A stretch of DNA of 64,000 bases from contig JACSSC010000039.1 of NCBI GenBank assembly GCA_014879445.1, forward strand, positions 62,001 to 126,000, given 5' to 3'. The stretch comes from Candidatus Competibacteraceae bacterium. Lineage in GTDB: Bacteria; Bacteroidota; Bacteroidia; CAIKAF01. Position numbers and translations under genes: made by a program. The stretch's first letter is position 1, and the number at the start of each line of letters is the position of its first letter. Positions 16,588 through 31,833 of this stretch are shown piece after piece. The notes below the pieces were generated by a model. The model searched no databases and was not told the origin of the DNA. It was given only the letters and a program-made list of their open reading frames with translations.

Positions 16588-16982
16588 TTCAAAAGTATGA
16601 TGGTTGGCACTTCAATCAGTTGGTTGTTTTCTGTGATTTCCACGTGTTGAAATACAGGAAATTGTCCGCCAGGAATGGTGAATGTTGAGTCATCGGAATA
16701 GGCGAAAACAGTGTACTGACCTGGTCGTAAATACGAAAATTCATAAGTACCATCATAGGAAGTTCTGATATTGTCATCATAGAATAGATGGTCGCCGTAA
16801 ATGATATATACTCTTTCCTCCTGTGCATAATATGCAGAATGTAGAAGTGTAAAGTTGCTATTGTAATTTCGAATAAAAACTTTACCTCGAATAGTAGAAG
16901 TGCCTCCTTCTCCAGCCGGTTTTTCGCAAGCCGTTATAAAAACTAACATGAGTAATACCAAAAGTGCAATGTAGTGTCTCAT
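16584..16982 (-). CDS. Small lipoprotein with carboxypeptidase-regulatory-like fold
   Basis: This 132-residue protein begins with a lipoprotein signal (MRHYIALLVLLMLVFITAC), the Cys at residue 19 being the likely lipid-modified residue. The mature part, STIRGKVFIRNYNSN, followed by DGTYEFSYLRPGQYTVFAY, is a beta-sandwich of the carboxypeptidase-regulatory (CarboxypepD_reg) kind common in Bacteroidota envelope proteins. No active site is expected. It overlaps both neighbours by 4 bases, which argues that it is made in step with the CotH protein and the repeat protein. Confidence 0.7.
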   Translation of the reverse strand: MRHYIALLVLLMLVFITACEKPAGEGGTSTIRGKVFIRNYNSNFTLLHSAYYAQEERVYIIYGDHLFYDDNIRTSYDGTYEFSYLRPGQYTVFAYSDDSTFTIPGGQFPVFQHVEITENNQLIEVPTIILLK

Positions 16983-19729
16983 CGTATTAAAGTTATATGT
17001 CCATATAGTACTTGATCCATATTTCCATCCTCATCAGAATATTTTAACCGATAGGCATATACACCAAGTGGGAGTGGGATGTCGTTATATACGCCGTTCC
17101 ATTGGAACTGGATATCATGAGAAGAGAAAAGCGTATTTCCCCAACGGTCAAAGATGGAAATTTCCAATTCGATGATACGATCATTAAAATACAATTGAAA
17201 CCAATCGTTTATTCCGTCGTCGTTAGGTGTGAATGAGTTGGGGATATAGAGAGTGGCGGGTTCAATATATGGTGGGGGAGGCGGGGGAACAAAAGTGAAG
17301 TATGCTGTGATGGTGTCGGAGTTGAATACTGTAAAATTTCCGGAAGAATCGGTCATGGAAGGAGAAATAGAATGATGGTTGGCGCCCCAGTGGTCAAAGA
17401 CATATTGGGGTGAAGGAACGGCAGCTAGTGAATATGATTCACCCGGTGCTACATTATCATTAAATGGATAAAATGGAAGAGTATTTCCGTTATGAACAAT
17501 AGTACCTCCGTTGGCAGGCACCACTCTGTATTGAATTCTCATTGAATCGTTTTGGGAGAAGTGAGCGATAATCGTATCTCCAGTGTTGAATGTGAATGAA
17601 ACGGATGATGCATTGATAGATGGATTTACGGTGTGATTTGATAATTCCCAGTAATCAAAGTTCCAACTCACAGCAGGGATGGCATCCATTTGTATTTGTG
17701 TAGGGCTAAAATATGTTGAACTCCAGGGATAAGTGCTTAGCAGATTATTAATAAAATTCACATTTCCACTGCCGGGTGGTTCAACCAAAACAACAACAGG
17801 ATACGGTCCGGTTACATCATAGCAATCAACAATTCCTTGATTAATAACATTACATCGTCCCTCAATTTGTGTTCTTAGGTGGTCGAGATTATTTTGCCAA
17901 CCTGCCATACTTCCGCCCCATCTTGCAATTTGCCCTGGCATTTCGGGTGTTAATACGTTTATGATACTATCAAGGTGAGCTAATATACGATTGCAACTTA
18001 AAGGGCCGTTAAGCAGGTCGGCATAGCGTGTAATGTAAAGATTTTTAAATCCATCATTGTCCATCAGCGCGTTGAATATGTCTAAATGCCCCATGTTGGG
18101 TCCTGTGTTTTGAAAGATGTTGTCTAAATCACATGGGTCGGCTTGATAGCCGGTGGTCGGCCATCCTGAGAAGTTCTCCCCCAAGTCATACACATTATCC
18201 ATATCCCACATGATGTATTTCCATTTTACGCCCGGATTGCCAAATCCTCTCCACCACATTGAATTCCAATTAATCCAGTCGCTATTCACAACATATGTGT
18301 TGTAAATGTAATGATCAATCACACTCATAACGTCTATGCGTGATGCAGCCACATCATAATTAGCTTGAACGGCCATACTGTTTGTCATGATGTAGTTATA
18401 CAGATTATTCCAGTCGGCCGTGCTTCCATATCTTACGATCATCCCGCCCCAAAATGAAAGTATATCAATTTCATCTTCATCCTGATTGTAATAGTATTTT
18501 GTATAATCATGATCGCTGGCTTTTTCTCTTATTTCATATAATCCCCAGTATTGGCCATTGATATATAGTATGCAAGATTCGAATCTTCTTCCATCCATAT
18601 GCAGGCCACTCTTAAACGCATACGATTGTATAAAGGCGTCACGCAGATGGCAGCCGGGATTATTTTGGAAAGGGTAGTTGTCGGAAGCTGCTGCTTTAAT
18701 GATAAGACGTTTGTAGCTTGGACGGGGCGTGGTATGAAATATCTGATATTGCATCTCATCATCATACCCTTCTTCATCACGTGTGATAAAATCTATACCT
18801 TTTTGTGGATATGCCCAGGAATCATTCCCATGTCCGTTTACTTCACCATAGCTTTCAAATTGAAATACTTCATTGGCATCAAAATATTCAATGGATGATC
18901 TTATTTCCAACATGGTGTTCCCAAAGAGTTGTGTGTAATTGTTTGATGCAACAGAGAGAATTGGAATGCTATGATTTACATTTATAAAATACGTGTTGGT
19001 TTCGATGAATCCGGGTAATATTTGCGGATCGGAAGAGAAAGCACGTGCTCTGATAACGGTGGTTGAATTTACGGCAATGGGTACCGTGTATGCTGTAGAA
19101 GCTGCCGTTGGTTCACTACCATTGGTTGTATAACGAATAGTAACATTGGGATCAGGTGAAGAGATAGAAACGGCAATGGGGCCGGGATAATTTCCGGGTG
19201 ACATATCCAAGGTTGGGGTGGTTGTATATCCGGCAAATGAGCCGGCATTTGCAGCGTTGGGATTGGGGGTTGAAAATACACCCCAGGTTGCAGAGCCATC
19301 CGAAATTCTTCCACGCGAATGATTTCGTAACGTCGGTTCTATTGTTACTTGATCAATAATGTTGGCGCTATTGTCTGATAAAACAATGACATCATTTCCT
19401 TCGCTTTGTGTAAGTTTGAAATTGGTATGATAGGGCGCTGCTGCTGTGATATTACGCTTGCTGGCAAAAATTACAATACGCTGTCCGGCCGCCAAATTTA
19501 CGCTGGGCATTTGCCACTTAAGCGGATTGGTCATTTTATCACTTAGATAATAATTGGAAAGATTTACTGGCGCTCCGCCTGCATTATACAACTCTATCCA
19601 GTCAGGCGTTTTGCCGAAATTGTCGGGCAAATGTCCCATATTGGCACATGAATATTCATTAATCAACAATTGTGCATGCAGTGTTTGGGCAAGGGCAATT
19701 CCAATAATAATTATTAAAAATTTTTTCAT
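16979..19729 (-). CDS. Secreted CotH-kinase protein with lamin-tail, chitobiase-like and T9SS type B domains
   Basis: This is a 916-residue multidomain protein. Signal peptide to residue 20; a lamin-tail domain at about 20-135 (LLINEYSCANMG, GKTPDWIELYNAGGAPVNLSNY); a chitobiase/beta-hexosaminidase C-terminal-like domain at about 170-245 (RYTTNGSEPTAASTAY). A CotH domain lies at about 280-620, with the kinase-type acidic motif WKYIMWDMDNVYDLGEN near residue 500. Two InlB-like bacterial repeats (FDYWELSNHTVNPS, FDHWGANHHSISPS) and a poly-Pro linker follow. A CHU_C / type B T9SS domain ends the chain (YIPNSFTPNDDGINDWFQ). CotH proteins are atypical kinases that phosphorylate spore-coat proteins in Bacillus. 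A substrate here could be its operon partners. It overlaps both neighbours by 4 bases. Confidence 0.85.
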   Translation of the reverse strand: MKKFLIIIIGIALAQTLHAQLLINEYSCANMGHLPDNFGKTPDWIELYNAGGAPVNLSNYYLSDKMTNPLKWQMPSVNLAAGQRIVIFASKRNITAAAPYHTNFKLTQSEGNDVIVLSDNSANIIDQVTIEPTLRNHSRGRISDGSATWGVFSTPNPNAANAGSFAGYTTTPTLDMSPGNYPGPIAVSISSPDPNVTIRYTTNGSEPTAASTAYTVPIAVNSTTVIRARAFSSDPQILPGFIETNTYFINVNHSIPILSVASNNYTQLFGNTMLEIRSSIEYFDANEVFQFESYGEVNGHGNDSWAYPQKGIDFITRDEEGYDDEMQYQIFHTTPRPSYKRLIIKAAASDNYPFQNNPGCHLRDAFIQSYAFKSGLHMDGRRFESCILYINGQYWGLYEIREKASDHDYTKYYYNQDEDEIDILSFWGGMIVRYGSTADWNNLYNYIMTNSMAVQANYDVAASRIDVMSVIDHYIYNTYVVNSDWINWNSMWWRGFGNPGVKWKYIMWDMDNVYDLGENFSGWPTTGYQADPCDLDNIFQNTGPNMGHLDIFNALMDNDGFKNLYITRYADLLNGPLSCNRILAHLDSIINVLTPEMPGQIARWGGSMAGWQNNLDHLRTQIEGRCNVINQGIVDCYDVTGPYPVVVLVEPPGSGNVNFINNLLSTYPWSSTYFSPTQIQMDAIPAVSWNFDYWELSNHTVNPSINASSVSFTFNTGDTIIAHFSQNDSMRIQYRVVPANGGTIVHNGNTLPFYPFNDNVAPGESYSLAAVPSPQYVFDHWGANHHSISPSMTDSSGNFTVFNSDTITAYFTFVPPPPPPYIEPATLYIPNSFTPNDDGINDWFQLYFNDRIIELEISIFDRWGNTLFSSHDIQFQWNGVYNDIPLPLGVYAYRLKYSDEDGNMDQVLYGHITLIR

Positions 19730-21122: not shown

Positions 21123-23144
21123 TTAAAACTGAAAATAGATAAATGCCTGCAAGTCGGATGTGATAAACTGATAAATGAGGAAAACGGTTGCCGTTACGCA
21201 GAGCACTTTAAAAGCTGGATGGGAGCGGATAAAGTAATTTCTATATACTTGTTTTATGCTTACAGGCAGCCAGTGGATAATCATTCCAATCAGAAAGATT
21301 ACAAATACCCCCCAGTGATTTGCTAAAATCTTAATGGCGGCATCTGCACTCCAGTTGTGAAGCAATTGTTGCATCATTCTATCCACCAGTTCCATCCCAT
21401 TTCCTGTGTTTTTGATATCTCCGGCTCTAAAGAATAATCGTGTAAAGGAAATAAATGTGAAAGTGAAGAATACTTTCCAGCCGGTACTCAGCCAGTGATA
21501 GTTTTTCTCATAGGGAGATATTTTCTTCCATTCTTTGTATATAACCAATGCAATACCGTTTAGTGCGCCCCATATTACAAAATTCCAGCTGGCTCCATGC
21601 CATAGCCCTCCTATCACCATTGTAATCATCAGATTAATATTTGTAATAATAGCATTTTTCATCGGCTTGTACACTAGAGATAACAATAATGAAAGTAAGG
21701 TGAGTGATGAAAAAATAATGAGAGATGCGAGCCAGTAACTTCCCGAAATCAGTATTACAAACAACATAATCACCAAGGCCCAAAAGTATGTACCGAATGT
21801 GCTTTTGCGATTCCCACCTAAAGGAATGTACAGATAATCTTTTAGCCATGTACTGAGCGACATATGCCATCTTTTCCAAAATTCAGCTACGCTGCGTGCT
21901 TTGTACGGAGAGTTGAAATTGGTTGGCAGCCGGAAACCCATCCATAACGATACGCCAATGGCTATATCTGTATATCCTGAAAAATCGGCATACACCTGTA
22001 ATGAATAAGTGAAAAGGGCCATTAATACTCCAAATCCGGTATAGTTCTCGGGATAATCAAAAACCCTGTCAATGAAATTTACAGCCATATAGTCGCCGAT
22101 AATCATTTTTTTTATTAATCCGTTGAGTATCCAAAACAAGGCCATCCCAAATTCGTAATGTGTAAGTTTGTATGGCTTGTAAATTTGGGGAACAAATTCG
22201 TTGGCTCGAACGATGGGGCCGGCAACAAGTTGAGGAAAGTATGATACATAAAATGCGAAATCACTGATTTTTTCTACAGGTTTAATCAATCGTCTATATA
22301 CATCAACCGAATAACTTATGGTTTGAAATGTAAAAAACGAAACACCAACAGGGAGCAAAATTTCATCTATGTCAAAGTGCGTGCCTGCATATCCGTTACT
22401 CCAATGTGCCAGCCAGTTTATAACATGAAAGTCGGTTTGAAATATTTGATTATAGGCATCCGTGAAAAAATATGCATATTTGAAATAGATGAGTGTGCCC
22501 AAATTGAGAAAGATACTGGTGGCTACCAATATGTTTCGCTTTACCTGTTTTTCGGTTTTGCCAAGGCCTCTTCCTATCCAGTAATCAGTAATGGTGCTAA
22601 ATATGAGTAGCAGAAAAAACAGTCCGCTTGTTTTGTAGTAAAAAAACAAACTGACAATACCCAGAAAGGCATTTCGAATACCAATTTTTTGATAAATGCT
22701 GCTGTATAGGGTGAGCACAATGGCAAAGAATGCCCAAAAGAAAAATTTTGTAAATATGAGTGGAGATGCGGGATTGAATGAGAAGATATCGCCTAATCCC
22801 TGAAAAATAAACGGGAGTAGTTGGTGAATGATGACAATAGTCAATCCTGTGAGAGCATTAATGAGATAGCGTTGCAGCGATGTAAGGTGTTGGGAAATGT
22901 ATGCTTGTTTGTAATGGTGCAATAGCATGCCAATAATGATAGCAGGAAATATAAGTCCGAGTGATTCAAATAGTGTTCCTGCAGCTGATATCGTATAGAA
23001 AATGGAAGAAGCCCAGTTTCGTTTTTCTGCGAATGTGTAAAACAACACCAGAACAATGTGTAAAACAATAAATGATACATTGAGCCATGTATCGGGTTGT
23101 GTTGGATTGAGTCGTAAGATATCAGCCAGTTGCGACAGATACAT
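21123..23144 (-). CDS. MBOAT-family membrane O-acyltransferase
   Basis: This 673-residue polytopic membrane protein belongs to the AlgI/PatA/DltB group, which moves acyl groups across the cytoplasmic membrane onto periplasmic acceptors. Core motifs are FWKRWHMSLSTWLKDYLYIPLGG at about residues 422-444 and the invariant catalytic His in GGLWHGASWN near 515. It is longer than the usual ~480 residues because of about 150 extra N-terminal residues forming several added helices. It is the last gene of an operon with two SGNH hydrolases and a LysM protein. MBOAT plus SGNH pairs are known for alginate and peptidoglycan O-acetylation. The acceptor here is not known. Confidence 0.88.
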   Translation of the reverse strand: MYLSQLADILRLNPTQPDTWLNVSFIVLHIVLVLFYTFAEKRNWASSIFYTISAAGTLFESLGLIFPAIIIGMLLHHYKQAYISQHLTSLQRYLINALTGLTIVIIHQLLPFIFQGLGDIFSFNPASPLIFTKFFFWAFFAIVLTLYSSIYQKIGIRNAFLGIVSLFFYYKTSGLFFLLLIFSTITDYWIGRGLGKTEKQVKRNILVATSIFLNLGTLIYFKYAYFFTDAYNQIFQTDFHVINWLAHWSNGYAGTHFDIDEILLPVGVSFFTFQTISYSVDVYRRLIKPVEKISDFAFYVSYFPQLVAGPIVRANEFVPQIYKPYKLTHYEFGMALFWILNGLIKKMIIGDYMAVNFIDRVFDYPENYTGFGVLMALFTYSLQVYADFSGYTDIAIGVSLWMGFRLPTNFNSPYKARSVAEFWKRWHMSLSTWLKDYLYIPLGGNRKSTFGTYFWALVIMLFVILISGSYWLASLIIFSSLTLLSLLLSLVYKPMKNAIITNINLMITMVIGGLWHGASWNFVIWGALNGIALVIYKEWKKISPYEKNYHWLSTGWKVFFTFTFISFTRLFFRAGDIKNTGNGMELVDRMMQQLLHNWSADAAIKILANHWGVFVIFLIGMIIHWLPVSIKQVYRNYFIRSHPAFKVLCVTATVFLIYQFITSDLQAFIYFQF

Positions 23145-23154
23145 AAATGAAGGA

Positions 23155-24423
23155 TTATTTCTGTTTGTTATAAGTATGCATTAAGTATATCTCGTATTCT
23201 TTCAGGATGGCTTCAAACAATAAGTCGCCCATGAGTTTATAACCGGGCGTAGAAAAGTGTACCCTGTCTTTTTTCCCTAGTCCGTTGTTCATCCATGTTT
23301 CCATACTGCCCAATCCTCCCATGATGGAGAAAAAATCCCAAACGCTAATATTTTTTTCCTTGGCTATTTGTAACATGATACGTTGTACGGATTCCCCATT
23401 TTTGTTTACATAATACTTTTTTTTGTATTTTCTGAAGCTGTCATTATTAGTAATTAAAATGATGGCGGCATCCGGATTGGCTATTAAAACTGAGTCAATC
23501 AGCTTCCTGTAGTTTCTTTCAAATACACTACCGTCAAAATCTTTCGAGGCCGCATCGTTGATGCCTAATCCAAAAATTACAAGGTCGGGTTTGAGAATTC
23601 GTAATTGTGATGTAAGTAAAACACAGCGAATAAATGAATATGTGCCAGCTCCATTTACTCCGGCAGCATGATAGGTTATTCCGGGGTCGTTGTTTTCGAG
23701 TTGTAGTCCATATAACGTAAATCCCCATTGTAGCGAATCGGTTTGTTTGAATCCTAATGTGATGCTATGATAATATCCGGTGAAAAGGATATCAGTGTAT
23801 CCATTAGGCATATTATTTACTATTCGGTAAAAATTAGTATCAACATCAACCGGATATATCGAAAATTGATTTGAATCGTTTTTGTGAAATACTCGAATGC
23901 GATTGAAGTCGTAGGATTGGTAATAGTCGGTTTTCAGCGATAAACTTATACTGGCTGTTGTGTCTTTTGTGGTTGCTGAGATTCCTGTTATGCCTAATTC
24001 GCAGAATGTGCCGTGCTGTGTGTTTTTACATGATTCCCATTTGCCGGTGTAGCCGGCTACATAGTTGTATGGATTGTTGGTATTGGCAATGCGGTATGGG
24101 AAAACTAATCCCCGACTGCCTTTGTTGCCCGGGAAAAATGTACTGAAACGCTCACGAATGCGACCTGAAAAAATATCGGCTTGTACATGCGATCCTCCAA
24201 TATGCAGAATATGGATATTCCCTTTACCGGAGAAAATCAGTTGGTCGAGTTTTTTGAAAAATGGAAGAAATCTGTGATTGTTGTTCGGAGAAATCAAATG
24301 GTTTTTTTCATATTGAATGAAAGGATAGGTATTGTACATATATGGATATTGACCATACGAAAGTGTGAATGATGCTTGCATGCACATTAGTAGCGATAGT
24401 AAAATATGTTGAATAAACTTCAT
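23155..24423 (-). CDS. Secreted SGNH/GDSL hydrolase or acyltransferase, partner of the MBOAT protein
   Basis: This 422-residue protein has a signal peptide to about residue 24 (SLLMCMQASFTLSYGQ). SGNH blocks are visible: HIGGSHVQAD around residue 77 with the nucleophile Ser (the usual GDS reads GGS), VIFGLGINDAAS around 287 supplying the Gly/Asn oxyanion residues, and DRVHFSTPGY around 386 supplying Asp and His. The triad looks intact. In alginate (AlgJ/AlgX) and peptidoglycan (PatB) systems such proteins take the acyl group from the MBOAT protein and transfer it to the polymer; others are esterases. The neighbours start 10 bases after and end 5 bases before, so this is one operon. Confidence 0.8.
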   Translation of the reverse strand: MKFIQHILLSLLMCMQASFTLSYGQYPYMYNTYPFIQYEKNHLISPNNNHRFLPFFKKLDQLIFSGKGNIHILHIGGSHVQADIFSGRIRERFSTFFPGNKGSRGLVFPYRIANTNNPYNYVAGYTGKWESCKNTQHGTFCELGITGISATTKDTTASISLSLKTDYYQSYDFNRIRVFHKNDSNQFSIYPVDVDTNFYRIVNNMPNGYTDILFTGYYHSITLGFKQTDSLQWGFTLYGLQLENNDPGITYHAAGVNGAGTYSFIRCVLLTSQLRILKPDLVIFGLGINDAASKDFDGSVFERNYRKLIDSVLIANPDAAIILITNNDSFRKYKKKYYVNKNGESVQRIMLQIAKEKNISVWDFFSIMGGLGSMETWMNNGLGKKDRVHFSTPGYKLMGDLLFEAILKEYEIYLMHTYNKQK

Positions 24424-24428
24424 TAATT

Positions 24429-25889
24429 TTACGGCTGTTGTTTTAAATCATGAATTGCTTCGATTCGTTTTTCAATTCTGTATTCATTATAGTCATTCAT
24501 CAATGCCTCAAAAAACAGTTCGGCAATTTTTTGTGCACCTTTGTTAGTAAAATGAATATAATCTTTCCCGGCTAGACCTTGCTCTACCCAAGCAGGCATG
24601 GAGTTTATGCCTCCCATAACATCCAGCATATCCCAGTAAGCACCCTTCGCATCAAATGTTGCCTTCTTTAAGTTGTTACGCACATCTTCTATGTATGGAT
24701 AGGATTGCATTTGCCCGTCAATGCGTTTCGACATATCAGCTAATCCAATAACCAGTATTGATAAATCTTTCTTTAAACTTCTCAAATACATGATTTGATC
24801 ATAGAATTTCCGACCGTAATCTGCTGCATTCTTTTCACCTTTGATGGATGGCATCATGTTACCGCCAAATTGAAGTATAAGTAGTTTTACATTTAATGCT
24901 TCAAAACTTTCTTTTAGCAATGCCGAATCGGCACGGGTAAAGATGGTGCCTGAGCATCCACGCATAGGTAAATTATCAACCGAAACACCTGATTTCCCAT
25001 CTAATGCTATGCCATATACTTCCGGCGAACCTCCGCCAGAGAACTGTAGAGTGATGGTTTTGGGAAAGGTGTCTAACTCCCATTCTAATATATGAAGTGC
25101 TTTGCCGGGTGTTGCTTGCTGTGTGCCGTATGTTTTGCCATGTGCAGAAAGCGAAACTGTAGCAACCGATTCAAGATTTCCAATGAGAACCTTCACTCGA
25201 TTAATCATCTTGGCTCGTTCGTATGATTGATGGCTGAGTGTAAATGTAATGTTGGCATGATCGGTATATTCTGACATATTGAGCATCAATCCGTATCTTT
25301 TATGATTAGCACGCAAATCAGTATCCATTCCCCAGCATGCATATCGCCGCCACGAACCTCCCGACGATTGCCTGATGGATGTGGATGGAATCACTTGAAC
25401 GGGTGGATGCAGCCCCGGCCCACTTCCTCCAAAACGTATCTGAAGCTGCTCCCTTACATATCCGGTAATGCGATCCATCTCAATCTGTGAATCGCCATAA
25501 TGCATGATGCGTAACGTGCCTTGCCTTTCTTCTACATTCTCTAGTGCATCAAAGAAATTATGCAGAATACGCTTGTTTGATTTTGGATAATGTATGCGGC
25601 TAGGATTGGATAAGCTGATTTCGCGAAATGCTCGTAAGCTGTCATCTAACGAATGTAACTCTCTAAGCAATGTGCTGTCCTTTTTTCGATTCAATACGTC
25701 ATCTATGTTCGCATAATTAATCCCTTTGTTGTTAAACATGTCAGAAACAGATGGAAACCTAAGAGAAAATGATGGTGAAAATTGAATGCCTTTCGGAAAT
25801 AGATAGGTAAATAAAATCATGATAACAGAAAGCGAAATGAATACAAGCATCATGAATCCCAATATGCGAAATGGCGTAATCTTTTTCAT
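24429..25889 (-). CDS. Membrane-anchored SGNH/GDSL-family protein
   Basis: This 486-residue protein has one N-terminal membrane helix (residues about 8-30) acting as an uncleaved anchor. The large periplasmic part has SGNH blocks: MHYGDSQIEMDR at about residue 133 (nucleophile Ser in GDS), LLILQFGGNMMPS for block III, and DYIHFTNKGA near 446 for the catalytic Asp and His. A beta-rich stretch between blocks I and III (about 190-300) may bind carbohydrate. It is a distant paralogue of the next SGNH gene in the operon, and both share the HFTxxG/HFSTPG ending. The LysM gene lies 3 bases upstream. It probably works with the MBOAT protein, though whether it adds or removes acyl groups cannot be told. 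Confidence 0.78.
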   Translation of the reverse strand: MKKITPFRILGFMMLVFISLSVIMILFTYLFPKGIQFSPSFSLRFPSVSDMFNNKGINYANIDDVLNRKKDSTLLRELHSLDDSLRAFREISLSNPSRIHYPKSNKRILHNFFDALENVEERQGTLRIMHYGDSQIEMDRITGYVREQLQIRFGGSGPGLHPPVQVIPSTSIRQSSGGSWRRYACWGMDTDLRANHKRYGLMLNMSEYTDHANITFTLSHQSYERAKMINRVKVLIGNLESVATVSLSAHGKTYGTQQATPGKALHILEWELDTFPKTITLQFSGGGSPEVYGIALDGKSGVSVDNLPMRGCSGTIFTRADSALLKESFEALNVKLLILQFGGNMMPSIKGEKNAADYGRKFYDQIMYLRSLKKDLSILVIGLADMSKRIDGQMQSYPYIEDVRNNLKKATFDAKGAYWDMLDVMGGINSMPAWVEQGLAGKDYIHFTNKGAQKIAELFFEALMNDYNEYRIEKRIEAIHDLKQQP

Positions 25890-25892
25890 CAG

Positions 25893-27275
25893 TTATTTTC
25901 TTTTGATCTTGAGCCGTTGTCCCGGATAAATCAGATTGTTTTTTATGTTATTATTTTGAATGATATCCGACTCTGATATCCCGTGTTTGTTGGCTATGCG
26001 CCATACCGAATCACCCGACTTTACTGTGTAATATATCCATTCTGTTTTGGTTGCAGTATTGGGTTTGTTCTCGGTTTCTTTTATCGTGGATTCTGTTTCT
26101 TTCTCGTTTTTCTCTGTTTGTGATTTATCGGTTACGCCTTCGTGAATAATAAGCGTCTGACCTACATAAATTACATCTGATTTTAGATTATTTAACCGTT
26201 TCAACTGCTCAATACTGACACGGTATTTTTGTGCAATTTGCCCAAGATTATCTCCTTTCTCAACACGGTATGTAACTTTTTTTTCAGTTTTTGTTGCAGT
26301 ATGCTCTGTCTTTGTTTCCTGATTTGATATGTTTTTTTCTATATGGACGGGCACACTCTGTTTCTGAATTATATTAGAATCTGCCGGCTCTTTGTATCCC
26401 TTGTATTTTTCAATAAGTTCAACAGGTATTTTGATTTGATATGTAGGCGATTGTGGTACGATGCCTCGAATAAATATGGAATTCCAATGTTGCAAATCCT
26501 GTGTTGAAATTTGTAAGTATGTGGCTAAATTTTCAAATTTCAAAAACTGATTACATTCTACGGGTTGTAATACTGGTGTGGGGGGGAGTTTCTTAGGGGT
26601 AAGTTCATATTCGGAATAATAATTTGTTAGATAAATTGCAGACACGTATGCGCCATACATTTTTTGTATTACCGGATGCATTGATTCAAGTAAAATACCA
26701 AAATTTGTATTTCCATGATTGCGACTTATGGCTGCATTGACCTCGGAAGGGCTTGAGATAAATGAAAGCAAAGCTAATCCCCAATCGCCATATAGTTGGT
26801 GTAATGACTCTAGATATTCGATGGCTGCATTTGTTGATTTTTGCAAATCCATTCTTTCATCTATCCAGTACGTTATTTTTAGTCCATATCTAATGGCTGT
26901 AATATATTGCAGATTCCAGTATCCTGCTCCGCCTATTTTGCTATTTTCCGTTGGTGAGTATGCAGATAATGAAAGCGGCAAATGCGATAACTCTTCGGGC
27001 ATGTTTTTTTTACGTAATTCCTCTTCAATCCTTTGTGTATGAAAGGCCGAAAGGGTTAATAATACCTGCGATTCGGTTCTGTTTTGATACATGCGTTCTC
27101 GAATGGATTGAAGTGCATCAACCGTAGGTTCTAGCGGGATTTTCTTTTCTACTTTTTTTAGTCGCCGGTAAATCACCGAATCTACATCATGCCATGCAAA
27201 AACCTGCGTAGTCGTTAATATAGTGACGACTATGACTAGCAATATGCATTTATTTGTGTAAGCGACGATTTGCAT
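25893..27275 (-). CDS. LysM protein with catalytically degenerate lytic-transglycosylase-like domain
   Basis: This 460-residue secreted protein has a signal peptide to about residue 28. Residues about 60-220 align with MltD/SLT-type lytic transglycosylases (MPEELSHLP, GYWNLQYITAIRYGL, GDWGLALLSF). However, the family's catalytic Glu in LPxVESxFxP is replaced: the segment reads LPLSLSAYSP, with Leu at that place. The AYN-type motif is also lost (SFISSPSEV), and the Q of G-W-Q is N. Two LysM domains follow (YRVEKGDNLGQIAQKYRVS and YTVKSGDSVWRIANKHGIS), with a weaker LysM-like stretch near 265-310. It probably binds peptidoglycan without cutting it. It begins the MBOAT/SGNH operon, 3 bases from the next gene. 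Confidence 0.8.
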   Translation of the reverse strand: MQIVAYTNKCILLVIVVTILTTTQVFAWHDVDSVIYRRLKKVEKKIPLEPTVDALQSIRERMYQNRTESQVLLTLSAFHTQRIEEELRKKNMPEELSHLPLSLSAYSPTENSKIGGAGYWNLQYITAIRYGLKITYWIDERMDLQKSTNAAIEYLESLHQLYGDWGLALLSFISSPSEVNAAISRNHGNTNFGILLESMHPVIQKMYGAYVSAIYLTNYYSEYELTPKKLPPTPVLQPVECNQFLKFENLATYLQISTQDLQHWNSIFIRGIVPQSPTYQIKIPVELIEKYKGYKEPADSNIIQKQSVPVHIEKNISNQETKTEHTATKTEKKVTYRVEKGDNLGQIAQKYRVSIEQLKRLNNLKSDVIYVGQTLIIHEGVTDKSQTEKNEKETESTIKETENKPNTATKTEWIYYTVKSGDSVWRIANKHGISESDIIQNNNIKNNLIYPGQRLKIKRK

Positions 27276-28107: not shown

Positions 28108-31100
28108 TTATTGCTTAACAATCTTCCAAACCCCTAATTTTTGTTTTAGCTGATATATATTCAGCCAATACATTCCCGATGCAAATGATTGTATATCTAT
28201 TGGTATCTGCATCCAGTCAGTCACGGATTTCTCTATATGCCAACGTCGAACAACTCGTCCTAATGCATCAGTAATCTCAAAATCAAGATTGTTTTGCTGA
28301 GATAGTGAAATGTTTACATACACTTTGTCGGTTGATGGATTCGGGTAAATCGAAACAGATGTAGTGGCGGTTGCATTACCATCAATGCCTGATTCAAACA
28401 ATATGATATCTGAGTAGATGGTATCTGTACAGCCGATACCGTTTGCAATGTGCCTAATATTGTATGTGCCCCAGGTAGGAAAAGTGTGGGTTGGATTTTG
28501 TACTGTTGATGAAAATGATGGTCCGTCCCATATCCATGAGGTTGCATTCGTAGCTGTTGAGTAGAAGTCAACTTGCAAGCCATTGATATTGGTTGTGAAT
28601 CCGGCAATAATGTTGCCGATGATGGCTTCAATGGGTACTCTTGGTGATACGCAATCTTCTTCTTGTATTTCCCAGTCATAAAAATAATAATAGTACTGGC
28701 TGCCGGCTGATGATCCTGTGATGCTGATTAGGCCTGCAATAGCATATGGATAGGTGGGGCCGGTGTTGTTTCGGTATAAGTTCATTTCAGAACCTCCCAA
28801 TCTGTAGTTGGTACCTGGTAGTAAATCAAAGTTAAGCGATATTCGGCTTTGTCCCGAAGGGATATAGACATACCTTGTGTCAATAATGTTTCCGGCGTTA
28901 TCCCATAATGTAACAGTACGGTTTCCGGCACTGCCTGAATTAACCCATACTGATAGTAATGTAAGTGGTTTGTTCACAGTAAAAGTGAGATATTGTGTTG
29001 ATGTGTTATTGTGCATGCCTCCTGAGCCAAATGATGAATTGACAGGGCCGACATATTGCAGAGGGGCACTTACAACCTGCTCTACATAATAGGTAGTGCT
29101 GTTGTTTAGCAAAGGAGTAGTAAAGCTACTGCCTGAATGAAACGGGTTATTGTCACTTAATTGGTAGTACCAGTTGATTAGCCCTGTTGCGGATGCATTG
29201 AGTGTGAAACTGGAACTGTCGCATGCACCCTGATTGAATACAATGGGCGCATCAGGTCGGTCAATGGTAATGTAAGCGGGTTTTATGATGGTGTTTGAGC
29301 CAATGTTATTGGTTACGGTCAATGTTACATCATACACCCCATCATTTAGGTATGTATGTGATGGGTTTTGAATATTGGCTTGGTTGCCATCGCCAAAGTC
29401 CCAAAGCCATGTATTGGCACCTTGTGTGGTTAGGTCAATAAACTGAACAAATCCATTGCAGGATGTTAAGGCAGTTGCATTAAAATCGGGTGAGGGTGGT
29501 GTAGTAGGAAGTGTGCATTGCCAGTGACATATGAATCCTTGGTCAGTTACGCTTACATCTGAATATTGACGTAGGGTGATGCTGCCACCTGAAGAAACGA
29601 TAGTACCGCCGTTGGGTAATGACGTGCCGGAATATTGACCGATTAAAGGACTGGTTATATCTGGTCCGTCGTAAATATAGAGGTAATCATAATCTTGTTC
29701 GAATCCAAATTGGGTAAATTGCAGCGTAATATATGATGCACCATTGGGGGCAATGGTAATCACGGCATTGGAATTGTCTTGATAATTGCCGTTTAGTCCA
29801 CCCGAATCATATAATGTGCCTGAACAACTGGTTTGTGTTTGGCTGGCGCCTGTAGGATTTAATGTGATAGCACAGGGGATGCTGTCGTGTATGATGATAT
29901 ATTGGGTTTGTATAATGCTGTCGAGCCCGCATGCGCCACCGTTGGCTACTAGCTTAACATTATATGCGCCGGGATTCATGTATATATGGTTGGGATTGAT
30001 GGATGTACTGGTATTTCCATCTCCAAAGTTCCAAAGAAATGAGCCCGCATTGGTACTTTGATTATAAAACTGAACGCTGACTGGCGCTGCACAAAACAGC
30101 GTGGAAGGGGTTGAAAATCCGGCTGCAACGGTAGGCGAATAAGGCATGCCAACTCCTACGGCATACCATGCATTTGTAACGGCTTCTACTTGTGGCGTGC
30201 ATGGCCCGTACAGATCAATCGCTGATTGTATGGCGTAGTATCTTGCATCGGCATAATTGCTGTTGGGTGTCAGATATACACTGAGATTACGGTAAGCCAC
30301 AGCTGATGCTATACCAAATCCTTGACCGGTAACATTGAATGAATTGCTTAAGTCATTGGTGCCTGATCCTCCCATCACCAATAAATAAAACCAATAATTT
30401 TGTACGCCTGAGTTGGTATGCACACCTCCATTATCTGCTGTGCCGGTGTACCAGTGCGTGCCTGTATAAGTATCGGGATCGCTGAAGAGATTGGGATTGT
30501 TCATGCTCCGAATTCCATTTCCGCTCGGCGTGGCTTCTTCTCCTATTCTCCAAATAGGGTTTTGATTCAGATTGCCTCCTCTGGCAAAATAATCAACACA
30601 TACTCCAAATATATCACTGAATGATTCGTTTAATGCCCCTGATTCATTCTGATATATTAGCCCGGCAGTATATTCGGTTAATCCATGTGTGATTTCATGT
30701 CCTGTGATATCAATGGATGTGAGTGGGTAAAATGTTGTACCGTTCCCATCTCCGTATGTCATGCGCTGCCCATCCCAATAGGCATTATTATAATTTACAT
30801 CGTAATGTACATAGCTTCGAAGCTTAAACCCATTATTATCTATACTGTTTCTGCTGAATGTGAGAAAAAAATAATCGTATGACATTTCTGCACCCCAATG
30901 TGCATCTCCTGCATATTGGTCAAGCTGTGCATTTACATTATTCCAATTATTGTCGCTGTCTGTAAAGTCAACAGCGCTTCCATAATTGGTGCCTTGGTTC
31001 ATATTATAGGTTTCTATCCCATTTCCTCGGCCTGTTTCTCTGAGTCGGTATATGCTGCCTGTAAAATCGGCCACAATGTTTCTGGCTCCACTGTAAACGG

Positions 31101-31833
31101 TTTGTGCTGTGCCCGGCACATCTGCCGTATGTATGCGGTTCAATGAAACCAGCACTTCTCCATTTTCTGCGTCTATATATAACCATTGCCTTTGCATTGG
31201 TTGATGTGCATATATATCCATTTTCCATGCCAGTCGAAATCTCGGTTGATTTTCATAATTTGCATCTTTTGCTACAATCACCAACTGTGGCGCAGGATAG
31301 TAGGTGGCCTGCGGATTCATGGTTTCCTGACGTAATAAATTTTCTTCTGTTTCAATCTCCCATTTGTATTGCTGTGCACCTACATACATTAAGGCACGCT
31401 GAATCGCAAAATCCTTGCTTATGGTCGGATTGGTATTTGTTATATCTGTGGCGTATGCTTCTCCATTCATGGATACTATCTTCCCATCGGAACCTATATG
31501 TATGTGATACATAGCAAATTCAACAGGTATATGATGAAAATATTGCTGAAATGTGATGTGATGCATCCCAAGCATATCGGTTTGTTGTTTCATCATCTTC
31601 CAGTCGGATGCATCTTTGTCTTTTGTTAGTTTCTTCAATATTGTGGGTGTATGAATGGCATCTACCGGAGTGTTGAATATAATATGTTGCGGTATGGGAT
31701 TGTCTGATTTTAGACGTATAAGCGATGCATTGCTGAAATATTTATCGGCTTCTGAACCGGTAAGAATGCGCTGCGATAATCCAGAAAGAAATGTTAGCGA
31801 GATAATACAAAGCAGAAGGTAAATGCGATTCAT
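28108..31833 (-). CDS. Secreted thermolysin-like M4 metalloprotease with PKD, CUB-like and T9SS type A domains
   Basis: This 1241-residue protein has a signal peptide to about residue 20 and a fungalysin/thermolysin propeptide (FTP and PepSY-like, about 60-230). The M4 catalytic domain has DITGHEITHGLTEYTAG near residue 380, giving the HExxH zinc site. NESFSDIFG follows about 20 residues later and supplies the third ligand Glu. Then come a PKD domain (FLWNFGDGNTSTSINPNH), a CUB-like domain (YDSGGLNGNYQDNSNAVI, YLYIYDGPD) and a second PKD domain (WLWDFGDGNQANIQNPSH). An Ig-like stretch follows, and a type A T9SS domain (SIYPNPSTDKVYVNI) closes the chain. It should be exported by T9SS and degrade extracellular protein. 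Confidence 0.9.
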   Translation of the reverse strand: MNRIYLLLCIISLTFLSGLSQRILTGSEADKYFSNASLIRLKSDNPIPQHIIFNTPVDAIHTPTILKKLTKDKDASDWKMMKQQTDMLGMHHITFQQYFHHIPVEFAMYHIHIGSDGKIVSMNGEAYATDITNTNPTISKDFAIQRALMYVGAQQYKWEIETEENLLRQETMNPQATYYPAPQLVIVAKDANYENQPRFRLAWKMDIYAHQPMQRQWLYIDAENGEVLVSLNRIHTADVPGTAQTVYSGARNIVADFTGSIYRLRETGRGNGIETYNMNQGTNYGSAVDFTDSDNNWNNVNAQLDQYAGDAHWGAEMSYDYFFLTFSRNSIDNNGFKLRSYVHYDVNYNNAYWDGQRMTYGDGNGTTFYPLTSIDITGHEITHGLTEYTAGLIYQNESGALNESFSDIFGVCVDYFARGGNLNQNPIWRIGEEATPSGNGIRSMNNPNLFSDPDTYTGTHWYTGTADNGGVHTNSGVQNYWFYLLVMGGSGTNDLSNSFNVTGQGFGIASAVAYRNLSVYLTPNSNYADARYYAIQSAIDLYGPCTPQVEAVTNAWYAVGVGMPYSPTVAAGFSTPSTLFCAAPVSVQFYNQSTNAGSFLWNFGDGNTSTSINPNHIYMNPGAYNVKLVANGGACGLDSIIQTQYIIIHDSIPCAITLNPTGASQTQTSCSGTLYDSGGLNGNYQDNSNAVITIAPNGASYITLQFTQFGFEQDYDYLYIYDGPDITSPLIGQYSGTSLPNGGTIVSSGGSITLRQYSDVSVTDQGFICHWQCTLPTTPPSPDFNATALTSCNGFVQFIDLTTQGANTWLWDFGDGNQANIQNPSHTYLNDGVYDVTLTVTNNIGSNTIIKPAYITIDRPDAPIVFNQGACDSSSFTLNASATGLINWYYQLSDNNPFHSGSSFTTPLLNNSTTYYVEQVVSAPLQYVGPVNSSFGSGGMHNNTSTQYLTFTVNKPLTLLSVWVNSGSAGNRTVTLWDNAGNIIDTRYVYIPSGQSRISLNFDLLPGTNYRLGGSEMNLYRNNTGPTYPYAIAGLISITGSSAGSQYYYYFYDWEIQEEDCVSPRVPIEAIIGNIIAGFTTNINGLQVDFYSTATNATSWIWDGPSFSSTVQNPTHTFPTWGTYNIRHIANGIGCTDTIYSDIILFESGIDGNATATTSVSIYPNPSTDKVYVNISLSQQNNLDFEITDALGRVVRRWHIEKSVTDWMQIPIDIQSFASGMYWLNIYQLKQKLGVWKIVKQ

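Follow-up and report, generated by a model that had tools for sequence, protein, structure and literature searches.

The stretch analyzed here, referred to as the window, comprises 64,000 nucleotides of contig JACSSC010000039.1 (positions 62,001 to 126,000, forward strand) from GCA_014879445.1, a genome of 2.69 Mb in 62 contigs that is named Candidatus Competibacteraceae bacterium and assigned by GTDB to the Bacteroidota (Bacteroidia; CAIKAF01). Four minus-strand open reading frames (ORFs) were found at 21123-27275 in the ORF map of the window, with intergenic gaps of 3, 5, and 10 bases. In order of transcription they encode a LysM/transglycosylase-like protein, a membrane-anchored SGNH protein (SGNH-B), a secreted SGNH protein (SGNH-A), and an MBOAT O-acyltransferase (Table 1). 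An earlier annotation made from the DNA letters, hereafter the sequence-only reading, had reported these genes and gaps together with a third SGNH gene (SGNH-C) 80 bases upstream, and all were confirmed. Our analysis suggests that the operon probably encodes a peptidoglycan O-acetylation machine, with a dead transglycosylase that would keep the glycan strand in place while it is modified.

Table 1. Genes, domains, and motifs of the operon and of the adjoining SGNH-C gene (window coordinates).
Feature	Position	Strand	Remark
Pseudo-lytic transglycosylase, two LysM, 460 aa	25893..27275	-	First of four genes; signal-peptide-like N-terminus
SLT (transglycosylase) domain, residues 84-187	26715..27026	-	PF01464, 36 bits (cut-off 21.3)
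Leu103 codon at catalytic Glu position	26967..26969	-	Alignment with MltD
LysM domain 1, about residues 334-377	26145..26276	-	
LysM domain 2, residues 416-458	25902..26030	-	
SGNH-B, membrane-anchored Ape1-type SGNH protein, 486 aa	24429..25889	-	
SGNH-B N-terminal hydrophobic anchor, residues 9-27	25809..25865	-	Hydropathy 2.83
SGNH-B beta-sandwich carbohydrate-binding-module-like insert, about residues 156-300	24990..25424	-	
SGNH-A, secreted Ape1-type SGNH protein, 422 aa	23155..24423	-	Signal-peptide-like N-terminus by reading
MBOAT O-acyltransferase, 673 aa	21123..23144	-	
C-terminal hexapeptide FIYFQF, residues 668-673, acyl-tyrosine shuttle motif FxYxxF	21126..21143	-	Motif role from PMC12148441
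SGNH-C, small SGNH protein, 241 aa	27356..28081	-	80 bases upstream of the four-gene set

The product of the first gene combines a predicted MltD fold with LysM domains. However, it differs from Pseudomonas aeruginosa MltD (8rhe/8rhf) in that the catalytic Glu of LPVIESAYNP aligns with Leu103 in the window's LPLSLSAYSP, and the Asn of the AYN motif is gone. Judged by this alignment the operon transglycosylase is non-catalytic, as the sequence-only reading had suspected. Transglycosylases elsewhere in these genomes had the Glu in 32 of the 33 examined, a count that covers matches fetched as loci (20/32 plus 30/50 matches, and L131-L133; repeats merged); 19 of the 53 best transglycosylase matches were operon copies, and four stretches were examined among the weaker ones. 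A tree computed under the simpler model LG+G4, and with a warning of joined long branches, divided the sequences at a strongly supported branch, the 51 copies lacking Glu falling on one side and the 53 bearing it on the other. It is one of two trees that exclude three loci for their long branches (L014, L027, and L052), X_L132 and X_L149 as short, and all rows gapped in the catalytic column; an earlier tree that included L014, L027, and L052 likewise indicated a single change. We also compared alignment columns for 37 non-Glu rows, which take in the same three long-branch loci. Since these rows were labelled by the catalytic column itself, their 0/37 for Glu is true by construction, which does not apply to the differences seen at the AYN Asn, Phe-to-Leu, and Gly columns; fold residues were kept. 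The ratio of nonsynonymous to synonymous substitution rates (dN/dS) was low, 0.11-0.34, with dS above 1 in three of the six pairs and infinite in one, and the pseudo-transglycosylases look to be under purifying selection. The phylogenies, the compared columns, and the dN/dS values did not favor the idea that the transglycosylase has simply decayed; the dead copies form a protein group apart from the Glu-bearing transglycosylases found elsewhere in the genomes.

Pfam scans matched PF13472 to SGNH-A at 61.8 bits and, below the cut-off of 32.9, to SGNH-B (24.4 bits) and SGNH-C (30.0 bits). SGNH-A matched the structure of the peptidoglycan esterase Ape1 (4k3u) at E 4e-23, with a profile E of 2.3e-38; sequence, and for SGNH-B also the predicted fold, place both operon proteins in the Ape1 family. 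Their catalytic residues are complete and invariant: S78, N289, D386, and H389 of SGNH-A in 20/20 aligned sequences, and S134, R310-G311 (block II), N344 (block III), and D443/H446 (block V) of SGNH-B in 36/36. Block I and motif VII read GGSH and DRVH in SGNH-A and GDSQ and DYIH in SGNH-B, the consensus of O-acetylpeptidoglycan ('OAP') proteins being GDS(H/F) and Dx(V/T)H. GDSH was present in 32/64 SGNH-A relatives of the class set described below. In some relatives (P0011, P0014, P0016-P0028, and L118) SGNH-B is longer, at about 585-596 aa, and includes a LysM domain.

Motif order, Pfam, and fold led us to reject the analogy with AlgJ/AlgX or PatB that the sequence-only reading had drawn for the SGNH partners. 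In AlgJ, which has a DxH motif, the catalytic Asp/His precede the Ser (PMC4148444), whereas the window proteins have the Ser first and DxxH last. No AlgX-family match was found in the Pfam scan of the operon proteins, and the PatB family (DUF459) gave no match in the window's genome at E ≤ 0.001. Within the window's order, weak, sub-cut-off DUF459 matches occurred in 3/16 genomes, two of them inside the operon SGNH-A gene. Like the operon MBOAT, AlgI has two SGNH-like partners (AlgJ and AlgX), one anchored and one secreted.

The MBOAT protein (PF03062, 79.6 bits) has an N-terminal extension with three hydrophobic segments ahead of a DltB-like core, for which the nearest solved structure is DltB (6bug, E 1.4e-20). 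It scored 144.4 bits against TIGR04091, under the 375-bit cut-off of the DltB equivalog. Its FWKRWH follows the OAP consensus F-W-(R/N)-R-W-H with K as the variable third letter, and F, W, R, W, and H are invariant in 20/20. The protein ends in a hexapeptide of the form FxYxxF, the motif that serves PatA and DltX as an acyl-tyrosine shuttle; the Tyr of PatA acetylates itself and passes the group on to PatB (PMC12148441). Across the locus sets, xxYxxF ended all 163 complete MBOAT homologue C-termini (161 distinct), with F in the first place in 147 and P in 16; the count excludes six genes truncated at contig ends and three fragments of the L250 gene (G229:C1), where the MBOAT gene lies in three ORFs and is apparently broken or affected by sequencing error. 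By analogy, the chemistry of the MBOAT protein would be the same as that of PatA.

Occurrence of the operon was surveyed by SGNH-B searches in a phylum draw of 148 genomes (E ≤ 1e-10) and a class draw of 247 genomes (E ≤ 1e-30). SGNH-B was detected in 30 genomes of the former, in 124 of the latter (71/141 genera), and in all 15 genomes of the window's order that were ≥80% complete. The nearest loci, i.e., the best 80 of at least 578, are skewed to close relatives, several are cut by contig ends, and the closest named relative is a Flavobacteriales metagenome-assembled genome (86% identity in the best segment). Most of them showed the same gene order with most gaps near zero, and conservation of the operon across Bacteroidota, on which the sequence-only reading had made its case depend, was supported. 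Since SGNH-A, MBOAT, and the transglycosylase gene were kept in order at 74, 70, and 42 of these 80 loci, respectively (the last within 500 bases in 41), the arrangement is not due to chance, and the four-gene set is a recurring Bacteroidota module. In the window's order the transglycosylase gene adjoined the operon in 10/15 genomes, the window included, and two more carry it elsewhere. SGNH-C lay upstream of the transglycosylase gene in 6/15 genomes of the order, again including the window, and at none of the 80 nearest loci; it was thus ruled out as a general core member and retained as a lineage trait. No viral carrier was confirmed in a scan of viral contigs, and no entry named Bacteroides was among the best 120 matches in either of two homologue listings.

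The class set consists of loci from 80 of the 124 genomes with a match, most of them high in the ranking; a further 15 were already represented in earlier sets and 29 stayed outside, and some genomes recur in several locus sets (L197 repeats L037). Where at least 4.5 kb of downstream sequence was available (70 loci), SGNH-B was followed by MBOAT in 55, with separate SGNH-A and MBOAT genes in 48 and an SGNH-A-MBOAT fusion in seven, while MBOAT without SGNH-A was never seen. Fusions of 931-970 aa, with SGNH N-terminal, MBOAT C-terminal, and SGNH-B encoded separately upstream, were observed in the family coded f45 (L216, L217, L225, L226, L227, L230, and L231). SGNH-B as the sole obligate partner of MBOAT had at first been favored from distant phylum loci with SGNH-B and MBOAT but without an SGNH-A match (e.g., L090, L092, and L101). 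This candidate was weakened because class MBOAT genes always accompany SGNH-A, to which they are fused in seven loci, and because block I GDSQ was found in only 6/33 SGNH-B rows of the phylum draw. The order SGNH-B, MBOAT, SGNH-A, combined with PIYLxF as C-terminal motif, was seen at other distant phylum loci (L105-L108 and L110-L112); in L106 and L107 the SGNH-A gene is encoded on the other strand. Some genomes (e.g., G213, G245, and G270) have two SGNH-B copies, and SGNH-B homologues at L234, L236-L244, L263, and L266 had no MBOAT or SGNH-A match in the fetched stretch.

Clusters for OAP were proposed in Bacteroides and Porphyromonas in 2005, on the strength of consecutive accessions for Pat, Ape1c, and Ape1b in B. 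thetaiotaomicron (NP811593-NP811595) and in P. gingivalis; B. fragilis has a comparable set (PMC1199599). Acetylation of Bacteroides walls is heavy: the same work gives measured peptidoglycan O-acetylation of 27.0% and 69.4% for the two Bacteroides, the gene assignment there having been made by sequence only, and a 2024 review cites 56-66% MurNAc (N-acetylmuramic acid) O-acetylation in three Bacteroides while placing Pat enzymes in Pseudomonadota and Campylobacterota (PMC11382707). An OAP cluster has at least one Ape-family gene adjacent to its acyltransferase; the window has two Ape1 homologues, at gaps of 10 and 5 bases. Because it matches the 2005 clusters in gene content, and is presumably orthologous to them, the MBOAT and two-SGNH core is not new. 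In the consulted sections of that paper, the SGNH genes are all called esterases and no LysM/transglycosylase gene is named, whereas the window operon has one. In the openly accessible journal literature, consulted in part and with bioRxiv outside the search, no Pat/Ape operon was found described as including a LysM/transglycosylase gene. The sequence-only reading had treated the whole combination as undescribed, which holds, within that literature, for its transglycosylase part but not for its core. The core is of a known kind; the pseudo-transglycosylase group and two fusions, SGNH-MBOAT and SGNH-LysM, are the new part. Neither these fusions, nor the acyl-shuttle motif at the MBOAT C-terminus, nor the distinctness of the dead transglycosylases as a group had been noticed in the sequence-only reading.

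The PatA/PatB/Ape1 systems of Neisseria and Campylobacter share with the window the MBOAT C-terminal FxYxxF (FIYFQF in the window), periplasmic SGNH partners, and an Ape1 homologue in the operon (PMC12148441). The operon differs in the Ape1 type of both SGNH proteins, one of which is membrane-anchored, and in its pseudo-transglycosylase, and its genome gave no PatB-family (DUF459) match. According to the same paper, PatB is without a canonical carbohydrate-binding domain for wall targeting; the word stem 'Bacteroid' is absent from this 2025 paper, and none of five Bacteroidota name stems occurs in the text of PMC6174289. Pairing of an Ape1-type SGNH enzyme with a transglycosylase has a precedent in Neisseria, where LtgA binds and stimulates Ape1 (PMC7083599). 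LtgA, though, is active and of other architecture, whereas the window protein is operon-encoded, MltD-type, and without the Glu.

Peptidoglycan O-acetylation affects both resistance to lysozyme and the activity of the cell's own transglycosylases. The sequence-only reading had proposed O-acylation of peptidoglycan or of a surface glycan, and the peptidoglycan option gains support from the LysM and MltD parts and the Ape1 type of the SGNH proteins. In the first step of the mechanism we propose, by analogy with PatA, MBOAT would move acetyl from acetyl-CoA to the Tyr of FIYFQF at the periplasmic face. From the Tyr, the acetyl would next go to the serine of an SGNH protein, more likely SGNH-A in the first instance, since MBOAT never occurred without it in the class sample and the two are fused in one family. 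SGNH-B, membrane-anchored and LysM-fused in some relatives, would be a second, wall-facing enzyme, either a transferase onto MurNAc or an editing esterase. In the third step the LysM-tethered pseudo-transglycosylase would bind strands of MurNAc and N-acetylglucosamine (GlcNAc) uncut and present MurNAc to the SGNH enzymes. The expected product, 6-O-acetyl-MurNAc, would block lysozyme, and also the cell's own active MltD, since transglycosylases need that hydroxyl free. The analysis itself established the genes, their motifs and predicted folds, their conservation, the fusions, and the missing Glu; that the group is acetyl, that it goes to peptidoglycan, how transfer and editing are divided between the SGNH proteins, and the docking role are all inferred from relatives. 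More specifically, and only tentatively, the dead-transglycosylase family may constitute a substrate-presenting subunit that grips MurNAc uncut and makes its C6 hydroxyl available to an acetyl-SGNH enzyme, itself charged from the MBOAT Tyr peptide. If so, the machine would mark, via a copy of the cutter, exactly the sites where a living MltD would otherwise cut. Because the same arrangement recurs in many relatives, the docking idea is testable, and a phylum-wide module with a pseudo-transglycosylase and with SGNH-MBOAT and SGNH-LysM fusions offers a handle on how acetyl is aimed at particular strands.

Several observations weigh against this interpretation. Ape1 is known as a remover of acetyl, and one or both SGNH proteins may therefore be esterases; moreover, block I of SGNH-A is GGSH in the window, not GDSH. 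The transglycosylase gene is not obligatory: among class loci with at least 2 kb upstream, it lay beside SGNH-B in 26/77, with the Glu kept in 8/26, and in the phylum draw it lay directly upstream in 1/33 loci (L087). Neither SGNH-A nor MBOAT followed SGNH-B in 11/70 class loci, and SGNH-A occurred without MBOAT in 4/70. In evolutionary rate, the pseudo-transglycosylase outpaces its operon neighbors in 5/5 pairs with finite dS. The gene that the 2005 paper gives upstream of the Bacteroides clusters is for a cation-efflux transporter rather than a transglycosylase (PMC1199599), and the 2024 review credits some Bacteroidota with OatA/OatB-type enzymes instead (PMC11382707); AT3 had no match in the window's genome. 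Other acyl pathways exist in that genome, since it has another MBOAT gene, AlgI-like and truncated at a contig end (L001, G000:C21), beyond which its partners lie. The acceptor could be another polymer, and activity, substrate, and complex formation are all assigned from relatives.

Of the alternatives, an ordinary Pat/Ape cluster survives best, although we consider it rather unlikely. Here MBOAT and one SGNH protein would acetylate peptidoglycan, the other SGNH protein would be an Ape1 esterase taking acetyl off again, and the transglycosylase-like protein would be an allosteric activator of that esterase, like LtgA, and not a subunit for docking or presentation. The Ape1 similarity of both SGNH proteins, the Neisseria complex (PMC7083599), and the Ape gene pairs beside Pat genes in the 2005 list (PMC1199599) are consistent with it, as are operon transglycosylases with Glu, which were found in 15/50 of an earlier locus set in addition to the class operons above. 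However, it leaves unexplained why the operon copy lost the Glu and the AYN Asn while Glu-bearing copies were kept elsewhere, and why SGNH and MBOAT are fused. That a surface glycan or secreted polymer is acylated, with the LysM/transglycosylase protein merely anchoring the complex to the wall, is improbable. MBOAT-SGNH systems do modify polymers such as alginate, cellulose, and secondary wall polysaccharides (PMC12148441), DltB is the nearest solved MBOAT, and the transglycosylase gene is missing from 51/77 class loci, but Ape1 rather than AlgJ/AlgX is the closest kin of both SGNH proteins, and peptidoglycan is the polymer suggested by the LysM and MltD parts and by the SGNH-LysM fusions. Least probable is a Glu-less transglycosylase outside acetylation, whether as a passenger in decay or as a protein that inhibits active MltD; its absence beside many homologous clusters, its faster evolution, and the existence of protein inhibitors of transglycosylases (IltA, PMC10746161) would fit, but the low dN/dS, single deep branch, kept fold residues, and repeated adjacency in the same order argue otherwise.

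Two genes for large secreted proteins flank the region. By reading of their translations, the one at 28108-31833 appears to encode an M4-like metalloprotease with PKD-like repeats, and that at 16979-19729 a CotH-like protein with a C-terminus resembling those of the type IX secretion system (T9SS).

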